Below, piece after piece: positions 39-7,577 of a stretch of DNA of 64,000 nt; the first letter of the stretch is position 1, and the number at the start of each line of letters is the position of its first letter. A program made the position numbers and the translations under genes. Location of the stretch: the NCBI GenBank assembly GCA_017656135.1, contig JACDOJ010000006.1:1-64000 (forward strand). The letters are read 5' to 3'. The notes beneath the pieces were generated by a model. That model saw only the letters and a program-made list of their open reading frames with translations, was not told the origin of the DNA and did not search any database. Source of the DNA: Bacillota bacterium (GTDB lineage: Bacteria > Bacillota > UBA5301).

Positions 39-449
39 CTATTTTACTCCCCGGACAAAACGCAGATTGGGTATGTAGTCAAAGGTGAGGATGTCCGCAG
101 ACCGCGCCCAGCTTGGGGGCACCTCATCCAGGGATTTATCGTAATAATGGTAGACACCGGGGATGGGATTGTGCTCTTCTTTGGCATGAACAATCGCCTG
201 GGCTATACCTTTGCAGACCTCCCAGGCATCTCCTTTGGGGTTCATAATCGCCCTGTAGTTGGGATCGCTCTCCAGCCAACTGCTGAACTGGTAGGGTTTA
301 GTTACGACCTCTTCGTAAGAATCCCCAAACCAGGAATTGGCTTTAACCCTATTCCGAATAACCCAACCAATGTAGAGCAGCGTCTCCAGATTTTCTCCTC
401 TTGCCTCTCCGTAGAGAGTGCGAGCCAGGTATTCCACCTCTCTACGCAT
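39..449 (-). CDS. SleB-type cell wall hydrolase without signal peptide
   Basis: A 136-residue protein of the Hydrolase_2/SleB family, which cleaves peptidoglycan. The visible family signature is the EARGE motif near residue 16 with its catalytic-type Glu, followed by the conserved asparagine/arginine segment VIRNRV and a late Ser/Trp-rich region. Unlike spore SleB or the LysM-SleB protein at 38.4 kb it has no signal peptide and no binding domain, as expected for a phage-type endolysin released by a holin. The start is fixed by a strong ribosome site (AAGGAGGG, 6 bases before ATG). It is the third gene of a unit with a holin-like and a spanin-like gene. Family is fairly sure; the lysis role is inferred from context. 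Confidence 0.75.
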   Translation of the reverse strand: MRREVEYLARTLYGEARGENLETLLYIGWVIRNRVKANSWFGDSYEEVVTKPYQFSSWLESDPNYRAIMNPKGDAWEVCKGIAQAIVHAKEEHNPIPGVYHYYDKSLDEVPPSWARSADILTFDYIPNLRFVRGVK

Positions 450-534
450 GAAGATCCCTCCTTAGTACAGTCTATGAGCTTGTACCAGAGAGAGACACCT
501 CAGGCATGGTTTCATTAGGTTTCATTGACTTGCG

Positions 535-1086
535 CTAGAAGGTATAGGTGAGGGCGGTGAGAAATCCATAGCCACTTTGGGTGAAGGTTACACCGGCAGA
601 AATGGCCAGCCTATCTTTTTTAAAGAGGGATTCGATGATCTTTTGCTGTTCTTGGACTAGTTTTTGCAGGTTCTTGTTGGATTCTATTAACCGGCTCACG
701 TCTTTTTCCGCCTCTTCGTAAAGCTTTTTGTATTCTGCGGCTATTTGGCTCATCTCCCGGTAGTACTGAAGCAATTGGTCATAGTCGCTGGGGATCTCAC
801 TGGTTTCGGCAAGAACCGTGATTGGAAATGCGCAGCCGATAAGAATTACGAAAACAATGACCGGTAACCTGTCGAGCCATTCAGACAACCACTTTGATTT
901 CTTTGTACGTTTCTCTTGGTTTTTTTCAATGTCTCTGACAGCATCCATCTCTCTTTCCGCTTCCCGATCCACTCTCTCGCTGACTTCCCGCCACAGGTCA
1001 ATTGCGGGGTTTTTCCACAACAGCCACGCGACGATGGCTCCGAGCACCGCCAGGAGAAAATAACCGATTTTCTTCAACCAATTCAT
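535..1086 (-). CDS. Spanin-like membrane/coiled-coil protein with beta-rich C-terminus
   Basis: I do not recognise a family. The 183-residue product has a hydrophobic helix (about 7-24), a charged middle (about 36-70), a second hydrophobic segment (about 74-93) containing LIGC, which resembles a lipobox, and ending VLA-ET like a signal peptidase site. A long predicted coiled coil follows (about 100-157), and the last 25 residues alternate polar and apolar and end in Phe, as outer-membrane strands do. The ATG at 1086 overlaps the stop of the upstream gene (ATGA) and has a GGTGG site just before it; a longer form starting at 1140 is less likely. Placement between a holin-like and an endolysin-like gene suggests a spanin. 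That role is inference only. Confidence 0.5.
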   Translation of the reverse strand: MNWLKKIGYFLLAVLGAIVAWLLWKNPAIDLWREVSERVDREAEREMDAVRDIEKNQEKRTKKSKWLSEWLDRLPVIVFVILIGCAFPITVLAETSEIPSDYDQLLQYYREMSQIAAEYKKLYEEAEKDVSRLIESNKNLQKLVQEQQKIIESLFKKDRLAISAGVTFTQSGYGFLTALTYTF

Positions 1087-1346
1087 TTTTCCACCTTCTT
1101 CTGAAAGACATTTGCACCAAGATAGGTCAGGGCTACCCAACGTGACAAGTCCACCCAGTCAGAGCTGTCTAGTTTGCTGTAGAAGAGCCCCACGGTTCCG
1201 ATAGCCAGAATTGCGGCGCACACCAGAAACTTGCGGCTTCCGTATTTACTGGAGGATATCTTTTTTTCCAGCCCCTCTGAGGTGTTTTCGGGCAGCTGCT
1301 GGGTCAATTCCTCATCCTGCGTTCTCTCATTAACAGTCTCACCCAT
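1083..1346 (-). CDS. Small holin-like membrane protein
   Basis: An 87-residue protein with an acidic, Glu/Thr/Gln-rich N-terminus (1-36), a clear transmembrane segment at about 40-57, a second weaker hydrophobic stretch at about 67-80 and a basic tail ending KKVEK. This shape (short, one or two membrane helices, charged tail) is common for holins, but no family motif is visible. The start has a GAGGAG ribosome site. It is first in a tight unit, overlapping the spanin-like gene by four bases, with a SleB hydrolase third. No other phage gene is visible in the window, so this may be a prophage edge or a domesticated lysis or release module. Confidence 0.5.
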   Translation of the reverse strand: MGETVNERTQDEELTQQLPENTSEGLEKKISSSKYGSRKFLVCAAILAIGTVGLFYSKLDSSDWVDLSRWVALTYLGANVFQKKVEK

Positions 1347-1520: not shown

Positions 1521-1550
1521 ACGAAAAATCGGCAACCTCGTGGGTTGCCG
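1521..1550 (-). terminator. Rho-independent terminator after the beta-barrel gene
   Basis: Perfect 8-bp stem CGGCAACC (1530-1537) / GGTTGCCG (1543-1550) with a 5-base loop; on the minus strand it is followed by ATTTTTCGT. It lies 29 bases past the stop of the outer-membrane barrel gene and closes the amyloid-like locus. The rest of the 232-base gap to the holin-like gene shows no other clear feature. Confidence 0.75.
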
Positions 1551-1578: not shown

Positions 1579-2457
1579 TTAGAAGCTAAATGGCCAGGCA
1601 ATCTTGACAGTTAAATCAGCGGCATCTTCCGTGAGACCCGCGCCAACAGTAAAGTCGATGTTTTGCCCTGAATCTGTGATATAACTGCTCCCCAGGTATA
1701 GAGTAGCGGCATTCATGTCAGATCCCTTTTCCGGAGTCCCGTCGACCTTCGTTTGACCGGTGAAAGCCTGCTCTAGACGGGCATTTAGTGAAAACCGATC
1801 ATTAATGGCAAAGGCCATGCCGACAGAGTATTGCCAAGTGTTACCGGGATCAATCGTACCGTATTCCTCCTGATTACGGGGGCTGTTGGCAAAATAACTT
1901 ATCCCACCAAAAAGGACAACTGGGTCAATCTGCTTCATCCTCATGAAACTGGCCTTTGCACCCCAGTGACCGGTGCCAAGAACCAGTCGTGAATCCCCCG
2001 CTTCATACGGATCCAATCCGGTTGGAACTTTGATACCAAGAGTAATCATATTTTGGACATCATCTTGCTGCAGCTCTGGCTGAAGGTTCAGCAAGAGTTC
2101 TATGTCGCCAATCCCAACCTCCCTGACAACTTTTTCTGTTCCCCCGTCACAGTATTTAAAGGTGTCATCGACCCTAAACTTATAGGGAACAATAACTTCA
2201 AAATCTGCTTCCGGGCTCAGATTTTGCCTTAGAGTCAACGTAGGCATCAATATATCACGCTTAATTTCGTCTACTTGAAGCCTTCCAATTATAATGACGT
2301 CGTAGAAACTATATCCATTTACATCTAGACGGTTTTTGGAATAATGGGAATAGGTTAGCCCCAGCTCCACTTGAGCATTATCTCCTTCAGCTAATACCGG
2401 AAAACCAAATAGAGACAATAATGAAAAAAGACATATAACAAGGGTGGCCCTTCTCAC
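1579..2457 (-). CDS. Outer-membrane beta-barrel (FapF-like exporter candidate)
   Basis: About 292 residues. A signal peptide ends near residue 23 (FPVLA-EGD). The rest is alternating amphipathic strands separated by polar turns, ending LTVKIAWPFSF with the terminal Phe typical of BAM-inserted barrels. The fold resembles the 'MetA pathway of phenol degradation' transporter family, to which, as I recall, the FapF amyloid exporter barrel is also related. It lacks the N-terminal coiled coil of FapF. The preferred start is GTG at 2457, 9 bases after a GGGGGGG ribosome site; an ATG at 2478 has no ribosome site. It is last in a four-gene unit with a C39 peptidase and two repeat-bearing secreted proteins. 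Barrel call strong, exporter role inferred. Confidence 0.7.
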   Translation of the reverse strand: MRRATLVICLFSLLSLFGFPVLAEGDNAQVELGLTYSHYSKNRLDVNGYSFYDVIIIGRLQVDEIKRDILMPTLTLRQNLSPEADFEVIVPYKFRVDDTFKYCDGGTEKVVREVGIGDIELLLNLQPELQQDDVQNMITLGIKVPTGLDPYEAGDSRLVLGTGHWGAKASFMRMKQIDPVVLFGGISYFANSPRNQEEYGTIDPGNTWQYSVGMAFAINDRFSLNARLEQAFTGQTKVDGTPEKGSDMNAATLYLGSSYITDSGQNIDFTVGAGLTEDAADLTVKIAWPFSF

Positions 2458-2487
2458 AGGCACATACCCCCCCTTCATCTTGAATCG

Positions 2488-2826
2488 CTATTCCAGTGGT
2501 AGTGTAAATGTTAAACCGCCAGTATCAGGAATTACAATGTTTCCATCGATACGAACATTGTTGAAAAAATAGATGTTAAATGTAATCGGATAAGATATCT
2601 GATTACCATCGCCTGTCACCTGAGCAATGACTGATATACCCTTTGCGTTTTGAAAGGCATGCCCAGATACCGTACTGGCCTTAACAGTATGTGGACTTCT
2701 TCCACCCAAAACTACACCCAACTGTTCGTTGGAAAGTGTTTCCAAACCCGTGGCACTAGCAAGCTGAGAGAACACCAGAATACCCAGCATGGTGATGATC
2801 AATGTAATCAGTTGTTCTTTGGCCAT
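2488..2826 (-). CDS. Secreted single-repeat protein with GG-type leader (minor amyloid subunit candidate)
   Basis: A 112-residue exported protein. The signal peptide runs to about residue 25 (QLASA-TG). Next comes LSNEQLGVVLGG (31-42), which looks like a double-glycine bacteriocin leader, the usual substrate of C39 peptidases. Residues 54-86 carry one copy of the repeat found twice in the 147-residue neighbour: SGHAFQNAKG, a Val/Ile-rich strand, then GDGNQ and a second strand. The glycine/asparagine spacing recalls FapB/FapC repeats. The tail (87-112) is Thr/Ile-rich. The start is set by GGGGGG 7 bases before ATG; it begins only 20 bases after the peptidase gene. The function is inferred from composition and context. 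Confidence 0.7.
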   Translation of the reverse strand: MAKEQLITLIITMLGILVFSQLASATGLETLSNEQLGVVLGGRSPHTVKASTVSGHAFQNAKGISVIAQVTGDGNQISYPITFNIYFFNNVRIDGNIVIPDTGGLTFTLPLE

Positions 2827-2845: not shown

Positions 2846-3526
2846 TTAAAATTCCATCGGACCAGACCTGCTCGTAAAGCTTGAATATAAGAGCCTTCGC
2901 ACATTATCAAATTCTGGGGCTCTTAATGGCTCAGCCCCTACTCTCTTACGTTGATCCTGCTTTCCATCAACTGTTAACAGAATACCGTTCCACATTGACT
3001 GAAATTCATCGACATTAAGAAGTCTGTTACCTTTAAATGGATCAGCGATGATAACATTGTTTTCCTTAACATGTCTAACCATTACAAAATAAGCAGAACT
3101 GCTAGAATTGAGCAAAACGATTGCAGGCGACCTAAGTGATCTTAGTCCATTTAAATCCCCTTTTAGCCCTCTGGCAACGTATCCCAATTGTTCGGCCGCA
3201 TTTTTAATGTCCAGCAACGAAAGCCCTTCATTGGCTGGGGTGTTACTCAGCTTCCGGAAGTTAATTATTTCTTTGATAATGTCTGTTTCCGAAACTGAGT
3301 CATCATAGTAGTAGTTAAGTATTGAAGCTAAAACAGCTGATCCACAACTGGCATCATATCGTGGCCGGACTATGCCTTGAAATTTTATATCAGCGAAAGT
3401 ATCAATGGTAATCTTTAAAGATGAGCCAATCAACGAACCAATATTCAGCTCCAAAGCTTGAGCGTAAAAGGTCGGCATCAATATAGAGAGAATAACAAGT
3501 CCTAGCAGAACCTTAGCAGGTCTCAT
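2846..3526 (-). CDS. Exported C39-family cysteine peptidase (FapD-like)
   Basis: A 226-residue protein with a signal peptide (cleavage near AQA, residue 24) and a single C39 peptidase domain. Visible catalytic features: Cys61 in YDASCGSA, His152 in VMVRHV and Asp162 in IIADP. There is no ABC-transporter part, unlike bacteriocin exporters, which matches the stand-alone FapD protease of Fap operons. The residue expected to be an oxyanion-hole Gln a few residues before the Cys appears as Pro/Arg (RPRYD), which may alter activity. A 40-residue basic extension follows the domain. The ATG at 3526 has GGGGATG upstream. It probably processes the neighbouring GG-leader protein; this is inference. Confidence 0.75.
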   Translation of the reverse strand: MRPAKVLLGLVILSILMPTFYAQALELNIGSLIGSSLKITIDTFADIKFQGIVRPRYDASCGSAVLASILNYYYDDSVSETDIIKEIINFRKLSNTPANEGLSLLDIKNAAEQLGYVARGLKGDLNGLRSLRSPAIVLLNSSSSAYFVMVRHVKENNVIIADPFKGNRLLNVDEFQSMWNGILLTVDGKQDQRKRVGAEPLRAPEFDNVRRLLYSSFTSRSGPMEF

Positions 3527-3557
3527 ACAAAAACATCCCCGTTTTGAAAAGAACAAA

Positions 3558-3576
3558 GAGCGGAGATTCTCCGCTC
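3558..3576 (-). terminator. Intercistronic stem-loop between subunit and peptidase genes
   Basis: Perfect 8-bp stem GAGCGGAG (3558-3565) / CTCCGCTC (3569-3576) with a 3-base loop; on the minus strand it is followed by TTTGTTCTTTTC. It sits in the 67-base gap between the two-repeat subunit gene and the peptidase gene. It could be a partial terminator or an mRNA-stabilising hairpin that keeps subunit output above that of downstream genes. Confidence 0.55.
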
Positions 3577-3593
3577 CGCCCCTTATTTTCACT

Positions 3594-4037
3594 TTATTCA
3601 CAGCCAAGATCAACATTGGCAATAAACGAAACATTGGACTGTACGGTATTGAAATTACCGACGCTCTGCTGGACGGTAATAATCCCCTTGGCATTTTGGA
3701 AAGCTTCCCCGCAAATTCTGTTGAAGGCCACTTTTCCTGGACAGCCAAGCTCTCCAGCACTTCCATTACCAGATAACACACTGAAATCAAAAATAAGGGG
3801 CATGATTGTATTAGTATTTTGAAGGTCATTAATCACGACGCTGACATTGTCTTGTACTGTGCTAGCCACTCCAACTACATTATTGACTGTCACAACACCC
3901 TCAACGTACTCAAAGGCTTCACCAGAGATCATGTTCCATCTCTTAGAACCACTATCTTCATGATGAGCTGCTACAGGCAATACCATAATCGCAAAGACCA
4001 AGATCAAAATGATACTAAATGACAAAATTTTCCTCAT
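3594..4037 (-). CDS. Secreted two-repeat protein (major amyloid subunit candidate)
   Basis: A 147-residue exported protein: signal peptide to about residue 24 (LPVAA-HH), then two copies of a ~33-residue repeat at 38-70 and 109-141. Shared positions are G-x-AF, a small residue, G, a Val/Ile/Thr strand, VG, then Asn/Gln/Val, ending in another Val-rich strand. A linker (71-108) is Asn/Gly/Ser-rich. Three Cys occur in the mature part (99, 109, 146). Fap fibre subunits have the same plan of Gly/Asn/Gln/Val repeats joined by linkers and C-terminal Cys residues. The start has AGGAGTG 8 bases before ATG. A lone TATACT (4134-4139, reversed) is the only promoter-like element upstream. Function inferred. 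Confidence 0.7.
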   Translation of the reverse strand: MRKILSFSIILILVFAIMVLPVAAHHEDSGSKRWNMISGEAFEYVEGVVTVNNVVGVASTVQDNVSVVINDLQNTNTIMPLIFDFSVLSGNGSAGELGCPGKVAFNRICGEAFQNAKGIITVQQSVGNFNTVQSNVSFIANVDLGCE

Positions 4038-4368: not shown

Positions 4369-5847
4369 TTATTCAGCCAGTAATTCTTTCGCTTTCTGGG
4401 CACCAGCCCTTAGCCTCTTCACCACTTCCTCTTGGCCGATAAGGACTATGGTATCATAGATGCCGGGGCTCACTGTACGGCCCGTTAGAGCTGCCCGCAC
4501 CGGATGAATCAGCTTACCCAGCTTCAGATCGTACTCTTCCTGGAGTTTCTTGAACTCCTTCTCCACCGTCTCCTGGTTGAAGGGCTCCAGGGTGGAAAAG
4601 ATGTCCGCCAGCCGCTCCAGAAGCTCTGGGACGTACTCTTTTTTTAGGTTCTTGAGAGCCTTCTCTTCATACTCCTCCACATCTTTGAAGAAGTAGGTAG
4701 TCAGCTCCACGATCTCATCCAAAGTCTTCAGCCTGGTCTGCATCTCGGCAACAATACCCCTAAGCCGCTCCTCTTCAGGCTGCGAAAGCTCCTCAGTTAT
4801 GTAACCGGCATCCAGCAGATAGGGTTTCATCAACTCCACCAGCCTATCCAAGGAGGCCTCTCTTATGTAGACACCGTTCATCCACTGGAGCTTAGCCAAA
4901 TCAAAGACCGCCGGGTTCTTGGAAACCCCATCTAAGCTGAAGTACTCCACCAGCTGGTCTTTGGTGAAGAGGTTATCAGTGGCATTGTAGGACCAACCGA
5001 GCAGGGCCAGGTAGTTGACCATCGCCTCCGGCAGGTATCCATCTGCCTTATACTGCATGACCGAAGTGGCCCCGTGCCGCTTGCTGAGCCTGGTTCTATC
5101 CGGACCCAGGATCATCGAGATGTGGGCAAATTTAGGGACCTCCCAGCCCAGCGCCTCATAGATCTGGATCTGTTTGGGAGTGTTGGAAAGGTGATCCTCC
5201 CCCCTAATAACATGGCTAATCTTCATGAGGTAGTCATCGACCACCACAGCGAAGTTATAGGTGGGCATCCCGTCGGATTTGAAGATCACAAAATCATCGA
5301 TGACCTCATTATCGAAAACCACTTTCCCCCTAACCAGATCGTCAACAATGGTCTTGCCGCTGTTCTTCGCCTTGAACCGGATCACCGGTTTGCGGCCCTC
5401 GGCCCTATATTTTTCCGCCTCTTCTTCGGTCAAGTGCAGGCATCTCTGATCATAGCGGGGTGCCTCTCCTGCTTCCTGCATCTTTTTCCGGCGCTCATCC
5501 AGCTCCTCAGGAGTGCAATAGCAGTAGTAGGCCCGTCCGGCATCCAAAAGCTCCTGGGCGTACTTCTTGTATAAGTCCAGGCGTCCGGTTTGGAAGTAGG
5601 GGCCGTAGCCTCCGTCCTTGCCGGGACCCTCATCCCAATCCAAACCCAGCCAGCTCATACCGTCCAAGATGGCCTGGACCGACTCCTCGGTGGACCGGAC
5701 TTGGTCTGTGTCTTCTATTCGCAAAATAAAATCTCCGCCGTGGTGACGGGCAAACAACCAATTAAAAAGCGCCGTCCGGGCGCCACCAACGTGTAAATAC
5801 CCGGTGGGGCTGGGAGCAAAACGTACTCTGACTCGCTCCAAGATCAT
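4369..5847 (-). CDS. gltX: Glutamyl-tRNA synthetase
   Basis: A class I synthetase of about 492 residues that loads glutamate on tRNA-Glu and, in GatCAB organisms, often on tRNA-Gln too. The HIGH-type signature appears in FAPSPTGYLHVGG (10-22) and the KMSKS-type signature as SKRHGA (255-260). Catalytic GEDH is near 217. A strong AGGAGGTG site lies only 3 bases before the ATG at 5847 but 9 bases before a TTG two codons later (MERVRVRF...), so the TTG may be the true start. tRNA-Gln follows directly, and gatCAB lies at 26-29 kb, which supports a non-discriminating role, though residues alone do not prove it. Confidence 0.95.
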   Translation of the reverse strand: MILERVRVRFAPSPTGYLHVGGARTALFNWLFARHHGGDFILRIEDTDQVRSTEESVQAILDGMSWLGLDWDEGPGKDGGYGPYFQTGRLDLYKKYAQELLDAGRAYYCYCTPEELDERRKKMQEAGEAPRYDQRCLHLTEEEAEKYRAEGRKPVIRFKAKNSGKTIVDDLVRGKVVFDNEVIDDFVIFKSDGMPTYNFAVVVDDYLMKISHVIRGEDHLSNTPKQIQIYEALGWEVPKFAHISMILGPDRTRLSKRHGATSVMQYKADGYLPEAMVNYLALLGWSYNATDNLFTKDQLVEYFSLDGVSKNPAVFDLAKLQWMNGVYIREASLDRLVELMKPYLLDAGYITEELSQPEEERLRGIVAEMQTRLKTLDEIVELTTYFFKDVEEYEEKALKNLKKEYVPELLERLADIFSTLEPFNQETVEKEFKKLQEEYDLKLGKLIHPVRAALTGRTVSPGIYDTIVLIGQEEVVKRLRAGAQKAKELLAE

Positions 5848-5915
5848 ACACCTCCTAGAAACATACCGTGATTTGTTCAACAAAACCGGCCCACGCTCCT
5901 GCTTCGATAAATAGA

Positions 5916-5954
5916 CAGCCAAAAAAGTGCGGAGTGGCCGCACTTTTTTGGCTG
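5916..5954 (-). terminator. Strong symmetric terminator between the spore-protein-like gene and gltX
   Basis: A 17-bp perfect stem, 5916-5932 against 5938-5954, with loop AGTGG. Each arm holds a run of six A or T, so it can act in both directions. It lies 37 bases past the stop of the small spore-protein-like gene and about 70 bases before gltX. Confidence 0.9.
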
Positions 5955-5991
5955 TACCTTAGCCCGTGTTACTTGTGCAAAATCGAGACAA

Positions 5992-6201
5992 TTACTTCTT
6001 TTTTAACTGGTTTTTCTTCTGCTTCTGTTGTTGGGCACCTAGTTCACTGGCAAATTCGTAGAACTCGTTGGATTCTTTCTTACCGCCGTAATGGTTTATT
6101 TTCTCATTACGCTGGCCGACCCCAAGAGCCCCGATTTCCTGCATCTGCTGCTGTTGCTGCTTCTGGAGCTGTTTCATCTTGTTCTTGTTCATTTTTGCCA
6201 T
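5992..6201 (-). CDS. Gamma-type small acid-soluble spore protein-like
   Basis: A 69-residue, Gln/Lys/Asn-rich, hydrophilic protein with no Cys or Trp. The segment NEFYEFASELGAQQQKQ near residues 45-61 closely resembles the repeat of gamma SASPs such as SspE (EFASE-x-x-AQQ-x-x-x-Q-NQ). Gamma SASPs are amino-acid stores broken down at spore germination. A strong AAGGAGGG site lies 8 bases before the ATG, and a perfect terminator follows, so it is a single-gene unit. Only one repeat copy is present and the lysine content is higher than usual, so the family assignment is likely but not certain. It supports a spore-forming ancestry. Confidence 0.6.
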   Translation of the reverse strand: MAKMNKNKMKQLQKQQQQQMQEIGALGVGQRNEKINHYGGKKESNEFYEFASELGAQQQKQKKNQLKKK

Positions 6202-6224
6202 TAAACGAGCCCTCCTTAAGGTGT

Positions 6225-6242
6225 TCTCTAGGGCCCTAGAGA
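6225..6242. promoter_or_regulatory. 18-bp perfect palindrome upstream of the spore-protein-like gene
   Basis: TCTCTAGGG/CCCTAGAGA is fully self-complementary and lies just before the ribosome site of the small gene at 6201. It could be an operator or an mRNA hairpin in the 5' leader. No specific regulator is recognised. Confidence 0.4.
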
Positions 6243-6248
6243 CACTCT

Positions 6249-6278
6249 TAATGTGCGGCAGCAGAAGGTTCTTTATAC
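6249..6278 (-). promoter_or_regulatory. Possible sigma-G-like promoter for the spore-protein-like gene
   Basis: On the minus strand GTATA (6274-6278) and CACATTA (6249-6255) are 18 bases apart. This resembles forespore sigma-G elements (GNATR, then CATNNTA) with one mismatch. It overlaps the end of the mtaD gene. The match is short, so this is a weak call. Confidence 0.3.
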
Positions 6279-7577
6279 TTGTAATTTCCTGGCTCTCTTA
6301 CTGGCCTGCCAGAGCAGCTCTTCCGGATCAATAGTGGTCAGCTCGCCCTTTCGCACCACGCTGCGGCCGGCCACCATTACATGCTCGACGTTGGCACCCC
6401 TGGCGGCGTAGACTAGGTTGGAGATGTAATCGTGAACCGGCTGCAGGTTAACAGCCTCAAAATCCACCACCTGCAGGTCCGCTTGGAAACCCGGTTCTAT
6501 CCGGCCCACAGGAGCTGAAACCCCGAAAGAGGTAGCGCCCGGATGAACAACTCTCTGCAGGAGGTAACCGGCGGGAATCTTGGTGGGATCGCCGGTGGAA
6601 ACCTTTTGAAGATACCCGGCCAAACGCAGCTCTTCGTAAAGATCCAGGTTGTTGTTGCTGGCAGCTCCGTCGGTACCAATCCCGACATTGATACCCCTTT
6701 CCCGCCAAGCAGTGAGGTTGGCAATGCCGCTGGCCAGCTTCATGTTGCTGGCTGGGCAGTGGGCTATGAAGGCGTTGGCCTCAGCCAGAAGATCCAGGTC
6801 CTGCTCTGATAAGTGAACTCCATGGGCCGCTAAGAGGGGCAGTTCCAGAAGGCCGGTTTCAGCCAGAATCTCTGTAGGAGTTTTGCCGTACCGGTCCAGG
6901 ACAGTCTGGTTCTCCACCTTGGTTTCCGAGAGGTGGATATGGATAGGCAGGCCCAATTCACCTGCGGCTTCGGCAGCCTTTTTCAACAGCCCCGGCGTAC
7001 AGGTGTAGGTTCCGTGGGGAGCGATGGTAAAAGTCACTCGTCCTTGAGCGGCACCGTTGTACTCTCGGCTGAAGGAGAGGGCCTCGTTGAAGGATGCCCG
7101 GCCTGACTCCTCATCGCCGACAAAACCCCGGGCCAGACAGGCGCGGATCCCTGACTCCTCCACCGCCTGGACCATCTGGGGAATGCCCATGTACATATCG
7201 AAGAAACACGTAGTCCCTGAAAGCAGCATTTCGGCGATAGCCAGCAGGCTGCCCCAGTAGTAGTCATCATCCTCCAACCTGTCCTCGGCCGGAAAGATTT
7301 TCTCTTCCAGCCATCTCTCCAAAGGCAGGTCTTCACCTAAACCCCGCAAAAGGGTCATTGGAGCGTGGGTGTGAAGGTTGATGAAACCCGGCAAGAGCAC
7401 TTTGCCTTTCCCGTCGATAACTTCATCTGCAACGAGGTCAGGCGGTACCTCACCGGAGGCCACCGCGACAATCTTGGTTCCCTCAACCAGAACATACCCC
7501 TGCTCAATCAAGTCCCAATCCTGATCGGAACCGGGTTTTGGCGATAAAATGACGATATTTTTAAAGAGCGTACCCAT
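6273..7577 (-). CDS. mtaD: 5-methylthioadenosine/S-adenosylhomocysteine deaminase
   Basis: A 434-residue metal-dependent amidohydrolase of the MtaD/SsnA group. It deaminates MTA and SAH to inosyl products. The metal site is visible as HTHAPMTLLRG near residue 68 (N-terminal His-x-His), HIHLSE in the middle, AAHGVHL, and GTDGAASNN with the final Asp. The ATG overlaps the stop of ahcY (TGATG) with AGGTGG just upstream. It is last in a unit with ahcY, mtnA and mtnP, all acting on products of S-adenosylmethionine use, which supports the MTA/SAH substrate over other amidohydrolase roles. Confidence 0.85.
   Translation of the reverse strand: MGTLFKNIVILSPKPGSDQDWDLIEQGYVLVEGTKIVAVASGEVPPDLVADEVIDGKGKVLLPGFINLHTHAPMTLLRGLGEDLPLERWLEEKIFPAEDRLEDDDYYWGSLLAIAEMLLSGTTCFFDMYMGIPQMVQAVEESGIRACLARGFVGDEESGRASFNEALSFSREYNGAAQGRVTFTIAPHGTYTCTPGLLKKAAEAAGELGLPIHIHLSETKVENQTVLDRYGKTPTEILAETGLLELPLLAAHGVHLSEQDLDLLAEANAFIAHCPASNMKLASGIANLTAWRERGINVGIGTDGAASNNNLDLYEELRLAGYLQKVSTGDPTKIPAGYLLQRVVHPGATSFGVSAPVGRIEPGFQADLQVVDFEAVNLQPVHDYISNLVYAARGANVEHVMVAGRSVVRKGELTTIDPEELLWQASKRARKLQV

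Follow-up and report, generated by a model that had tools for sequence, protein, structure and literature searches.

In Pseudomonas, the C39 peptidase FapD of the Fap functional-amyloid system is periplasmic, and its active-site residue Cys38 is required for secretion (PMC5557850). The same study found no peptides from the first ~70 residues of FapE in mass spectrometry, called the target of FapD unclear, and described the Fap proteins as lacking canonical C39 sequences (PMC5557850). A 2018 review lists the FapD substrate as undetermined (PMC6173800), and a 2025 review names FapE and FapF as the presumed targets of FapD (PMC12822426). In other settings, C39 peptidases read a leader whose consensus includes Glu-8 (PMC6363468), and the C39-like domain (CLD) of HlyB has been proposed to tether unfolded substrate (PMC8277102). 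Here, we analyze a 64,000-nucleotide stretch of a Bacillota genome (the window) that encodes, at positions 2488-2826, a small exported protein with a double-glycine leader next to an exported C39 peptidase. We consider it probable, from the sequences described below, that this protein corresponds to FapE as the minor subunit encoded by a minimal Fap-type operon, and that the C39 protein binds its leader without cutting it.

The protein is encoded third in a row of four minus-strand genes separated by intergenic gaps of 67, 19 and 9 bases (Table 1), an arrangement whose likeness to Fap had escaped the initial annotation. NCBIfam models match the first, second and fourth genes, all under their strict equivalog cut-offs, in the order fapB/C-D-E-F, which therefore places protein 2488-2826 in the FapE position; the NCBIfam FapE model does not match it, though it lies between the FapD- and FapF-like genes. 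The operon has a single subunit gene with two repeats, SGEAFEYVEGVVTVNNVVGVAST and CGEAFQNAKGIITVQQSVGNFNTVQSN, and a repeat of the same kind (AFQNAKGI..) recurs in the mature part of the FapE-position protein. The FapF-like match is likewise below its cut-off (a 700-bit equivalog) and covers the barrel part only: the N-terminal coiled coil and plug region of FapF are absent from the window protein, whose mature barrel starts directly after the signal peptide. The host genome encodes BamA/Omp85 (3.6e-48) and therefore has an outer membrane. Gene content and order mark the operon as a minimal and diverged version of the Fap functional-amyloid system, in a diderm host grouped with Bacillota. The hairpin between the first two genes could dampen expression of the genes that follow, or set subunit stoichiometry. 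The host assembly is fragmented (86 contigs), with the genome 99% complete. At the contig end, a cell-wall hydrolase gene (39-1346, minus strand; PF07486; PHROG endolysin 3e-14) adjoins two small membrane proteins, a grouping suggestive of a lysis-type cluster or of a spore-hydrolase one.

Table 1. Features of the Fap-like operon in the window, in order of transcription.
Feature	Position	Strand	Evidence
FapB/C-like amyloid-repeat subunit, 147 aa, exported	3594..4037	-	NCBIfam FapB 5.3e-5, below cut-off; homologue in G086
Terminator-like stem-loop, repeat subunit-fapD gap (67 bp)	3557..3577	-	consensus scan only
FapD-like exported C39 peptidase	2846..3526	-	PF03412 and NCBIfam FapD
FapE-position protein, 112 aa: Sec signal peptide, GG leader and one Fap-type repeat	2488..2826 (2491-2826 without stop)	-	
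Sec signal peptide MAKEQLITLIITMLGILVFSQLASA, residues 1-25	2752..2826	-	hydrophobic core and AxA site, by eye
Propeptide, residues 26-42, containing the GG leader	2701..2751	-	
Double-glycine leader LSNEQLGVVLGG, residues 31-42	2701-2736	-	held-out leader profile and motif expectation
Predicted mature part, 70 aa, with repeat VSGHAFQNAKGISVIAQVTGDGNQ	2491..2700	-	BLASTP to amyloid-repeat protein, E 2e-7
FapF-like outer-membrane barrel	1579..2478	-	NCBIfam FapF 2.2e-34, profile 124-420 of 420
Terminator-like stem-loop, operon end	1530..1550	-	consensus scan only

The FapE-position protein begins at an ATG at 2826, preceded by a GGGGGG ribosome-binding stretch, and its N-terminus is laid out as MAKEQLITLIITMLGILVFSQLASA / TGLETLSNEQLGVVLGG / RSPHTVK... 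The leader carries L-12, S-11, L-7, V-4, G-2 and G-1; L-12, L-7, V-4 and the GG pair agree with the known C39 consensus, while the Glu-8 of the ComA consensus is replaced by Gln, with a Glu at -9. The claim of a Sec signal peptide followed by a GG leader thus holds: a leader profile built with the protein's own group held out ranks the GG site above all others in the protein (shuffle p=0.008), and the classic GG motif is expected only 0.08 times in residues 16-60 of all 60 window ORFs together. An AF2 model of the protein is uninformative (pLDDT 43). The bacteriocin flavor first given to the protein does not survive its mature part, whose Fap-type repeat is homologous (by BLASTP) to gene 1 and to orthologues in two other Fap-like operons. 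That it is a bacteriocin or signaling peptide taking an unusual Sec route is very improbable: the GG leader would fit such a product, as would the glycine-rich, bacteriocin-like proteins that adjoin related exported C39s on small plasmids of Acinetobacter, Deinococcus and Campylobacter, but no Pfam or PHROGs family and no NCBIfam bacteriocin model matches the protein, and no immunity or ABC gene lies nearby. We reject this reading on content, for the repeat homology and the missing bacteriocin-model match.

Leaders in the same register occur in 37 proteins from 21 groups that adjoin exported C39 peptidases, in Bacillota, Pseudomonadota, Campylobacterota and Deinococcota. The leaders were marked by eye, and each protein was then scored with a profile whose training set excluded its own group, with shuffles providing p values; marking by eye is a weakness that this held-out test removes only in part. 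The marked site scores highest in 34 of the 37 proteins and reaches p<0.02 in 31, as against none of 20 controls from the same operons (FapB/C, FapD, FapF and others). In the remaining three, the Polymorphobacter small subunit and two Acinetobacter proteins, another site scores higher, and the held-out profile gives no statistical support to the leaders of FilA, G373 and one Campylobacter protein. Position -2 is Gly in 36/37 and Glu-8 is present in 20/37; position -1 is relaxed (G 17, E 7, R 3, K 3, A 3, M 2, Q 1, D 1). We suggest that this common leader is probably the sequence that FapD recognizes.

Two assemblies, G086 (a Bacillota metagenome assembly, of the same phylum as the window host) and G324, have the identical four-gene order, and their FapE-position proteins are homologous to that of the window (for G086, 29% identity over 111 aa, E 1e-10). 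Their leaders read LSDDELTTIAAM/G and VSEDELSGIAGM/G, with the slash at the end of the leader. The leader proposed at the outset is thus conserved in register and in its hydrophobic/acidic pattern in the two nearest orthologues, and its GG pair is not, being replaced by AAM/G and AGM/G; of the three Bacillota Fap-like leaders, that of the window comes closest to the canonical form. This change of GG counts against our preferred explanation, as do the window FapB and FapD matches, which fall far below the NCBIfam cut-offs, and the missing FapE match. It also lends something to the view that the GG leader is a chance likeness in an ordinary exported protein, as do the shortness of the motif and the Gln at -8. 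We give that view next to no probability, given the score obtained with the protein's own group held out, the shared register of its orthologues, and the 37 proteins beside exported C39s with their negative controls. Searches around G086 and G324 found no more Fap-type operons in Bacillota, and a contig scan with the FapF alignment, whose patterns were too strict, returned one locus only.

Beyond Bacillota, FapE-position proteins of plasmid-borne proteobacterial Fap-like operons carry the leaders LSEEVLARQRGG (Croceicoccus), ITDYELATMRGG (Polymorphobacter), LSNSSLEEYRGG (Vibrio), LTDDEMSSLRGG (Photobacterium), LADGELAHLRGR (Aeromonas, whose protein NCBIfam recognizes as FapE at 2.3e-12) and VAQARLEESRGG (Cupriavidus). 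One Cupriavidus operon bears the leader in three proteins: the small repeat subunit, FapE and the FapF linker. In Cupriavidus FapF (L050:6895-8367 and L138:6443-7894), the leader lies in the linker past the coiled coil (VDSESLARKRGG, ISPDALARKRGG), which supports FapD also cutting FapF. The motif thus fits FapD processing of FapE and, in Cupriavidus, of the FapF linker.

The gene upstream of the FapE-position protein was correctly recognized as an exported C39 peptidase: it matches PF03412 (Peptidase_C39) with 84 bits (E 7.9e-24) and the NCBIfam FapD model at 1.6e-28, under cut-off, and begins with a signal peptide, MRPAKVLLGLVILSILMPTFYAQA, identified by eye. Its AF2 model is usable in the C39 core only, and this core matches PCAT1, ComA and LahT (Foldseek, E ~1e-8 to 1e-7) and also the non-cutting HlyB domain. 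What had been overlooked is the state of its catalytic site. Mapping Q21/C27/H101/D117 of LahT (6mpz) onto the window protein gives P55/C61/Y146/D162: Cys61 and Asp162 are kept, Tyr146 (3089-3091) replaces the catalytic His, and Pro55 (3362-3364) replaces the oxyanion Gln. The Cys-His-Asp triad plus Gln is therefore incomplete, and so is the protein as a catalytic FapD. Among other exported C39 homologues with a readable site, His is present in 36/36 and Gln in 35/36, the exception being G086, which has Ala. The window peptidase has probably lost activity. No other C39 above the family cut-off is encoded in the window genome, and a second C39 acting in trans was rejected on this ground. With the catalytic His and the oxyanion Gln both replaced and no further C39 to stand in, cutting is doubtful here, and leader binding without cutting appears more likely. 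Several deposited records hold split or shortened FapD/FilB-like genes, in Vibrio SCSIO 43009 (L052:9290-9968), Photobacterium GJ3 (L054:3044-3577) and A. baumannii VB1190 (L056:4998-5837), whose relatives have intact copies.

Two other readings of the altered site deserve consideration. The window C39 may be active and cut after GG in the periplasm, with Tyr146 and Pro55 tolerated or the His change an assembly error. The perfectly canonical GG leader retained beside it speaks for this, as do the kept Cys61 and Asp162, the open gene in a tight operon, and the work on LahT that questions Gln as the oxyanion residue (PMC6363468); moreover, each of the two changes lies one base from the active residue. 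This short distance, and the reliance of both changes on one fragmented assembly, also count against our preferred explanation. We nonetheless find active cutting unlikely, given that His belongs to the catalytic triad (PMC6363468), that both residues are so constant among the other exported C39s, and that random error is unlikely to strike exactly two active-site positions in a frame that is otherwise open. The second reading is that the system is decaying: the peptidase was recently lost, leaving the leader as a relic, with export of the uncut protein from an operon that is disappearing. Two catalytic residues are indeed gone, the operon is missing from two other sampled family members, and the FapD end branch is longer in the window and G086 than in G324. 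Yet all four genes are open, closely spaced and conserved in order, the FapF-like barrel is 56% identical to that of G324 (44-56% across the G086 and G324 homologues), and the leader is, as noted, the most canonical of its group, so that we regard decay as quite unlikely. From the FapF tree, we used only the values for the window, G086 and G324, as the Aeromonas, Croceicoccus and Polymorphobacter rows were in the wrong frame.

Taking non-cutting leader binding as our preferred reading, we propose the following model. Sec would take the FapE-position protein over the inner membrane, and signal peptidase would remove residues 1-25, baring the leader TGLETLSNEQLGVVLGG, which would then dock, in the periplasm, in the groove of the FapD-like C39 protein via L-12, L-7 and V-4; docking would tether the amyloid-prone subunit, which may then be passed on to the barrel, FapF. 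Where relatives have kept the catalytic site intact, the leader would be cut after position -1, while in the window genome the C39 protein, lacking His and Gln, would probably bind the leader uncut, or cut it poorly. The two-step maturation first proposed for this protein is thus the best reading for the family as a whole, with its register shared by 37 proteins and a FapD that is periplasmic in Pseudomonas (PMC5557850); cleavage by the window enzyme is the part of the proposal that we do not retain. The reversed order of events, with Sec acting first and C39 in the periplasm, is equally the best family reading, and it is not new, having already been proposed for FapD.

Exported C39 proteins also adjoin signal-peptide proteins that carry the same leader and have glycine-rich, bacteriocin-like or toxin-like (Ntox33) mature parts. 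This non-amyloid cargo occurs in Limnochordia-like genomes (a label that is a guess for the class of G192 and G105), in Deinococcus, and on Acinetobacter and Campylobacter plasmids. On a plasmid of Deinococcus sp. NW-56, one protein (L057:4000-4557) joins a Sec signal, the leader LSDAELDEVKGE, a hydrophobic stretch and an Ntox33 domain (PF15533, 3.7e-23); its neighbors are an exported C39 (5037-5639) and an outer-membrane barrel (5642-6394), making it a toxin-like cargo for a pathway of this kind. Acinetobacter plasmids of 6.3 and 135 kb (L133:404-2033 and L134:1463-4543) encode an exported C39 and a barrel, together with either one or two exported, glycine-rich proteins whose leader reads LS(N/R)QEMKDTQGA, in what looks like a Sec-exported bacteriocin-like system. 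On the mobilizable Campylobacter concisus plasmid pCCON16 (L136:1602-6875), an exported C39 and a barrel are accompanied by two exported proteins whose leaders read LNNNEMKNIKGG and LNETELQEILGG. In Limnochordia-like and related Bacillota (L108, L114, L117, L012 and L011), there are three- to four-gene operons that encode a protein with a signal peptide, a GE-ending leader and a glycine-rich stretch, a small membrane protein, an exported C39 and a small barrel. We put forward, as a proposal that may prove right or wrong with equal ease, that a general pathway operates in diderms: precursors would be exported by Sec, a free periplasmic C39 would read a GG-type leader with Gly-2 fixed and -1 relaxed, and a FapF-like barrel would release the cargo, comprising amyloid subunits as well as, in Limnochordia-like and Deinococcus genomes and on small plasmids, bacteriocin- or toxin-like proteins. 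In some lineages, that of the window among them, the C39 protein would have become a non-cutting leader receptor.

FapD is essential to Fap amyloid secretion, and its cleavage sequence has been reported as unrecognizable; the leader described here offers a shared motif that can be tested. Since FapE-position proteins carry the motif, as do small repeat subunits and some FapF linkers, point mutation can test FapD targeting. The motif also connects the export of amyloids with that of bacteriocin-like and toxin-like cargo. The window itself is a natural case that separates binding from cutting, with the leader retained and catalytic residues lost.

Among known systems, the window operon shares with Fap (fapABCDEF, Pseudomonas and relatives) the exported C39, the repeat subunit, the FapE-position protein, the FapF barrel and the gene order. 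It differs in having four genes only, without FapA; one subunit with two repeats, where Fap has FapB and FapC with three N/Q-rich repeats; a FapF that lacks the coiled coil; a FapE-position protein that is small, has a single repeat and bears a canonical GG leader; and a peptidase without catalytic His and Gln. The Acinetobacter Fil system (FilA, the C39 FilB and the barrel FilC) likewise has an exported C39 and a barrel in one operon (the window proteins match the FilB model at 2.4e-25 and FilC at 9e-14), but the window matches it more weakly than Fap, and the resemblance of the FilA leader MDDAALSAATGQ is unsupported (p=0.30). With the peptidase-containing ABC transporters ComA, PCAT1 and LahT and their GG-leader bacteriocins, it shares the C39 fold and the leader consensus of L-12, L-7, V-4 and GG. 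A GG-leader bacteriocin system would combine an ABC transporter bearing C39, a precursor without a Sec signal and a bacteriocin core; in the window, by contrast, the C39 protein is free-standing and exported, its substrate is a Sec substrate with an amyloid-type product, and there is no ABC transporter. The HlyB CLD, finally, has the C39 fold and an incomplete catalytic site in common with the window peptidase. HlyB, however, has lost Cys, sits in an ABC transporter and handles leaderless substrates, whereas the window peptidase keeps Cys and loses His and Gln, and its substrate retains the leader.
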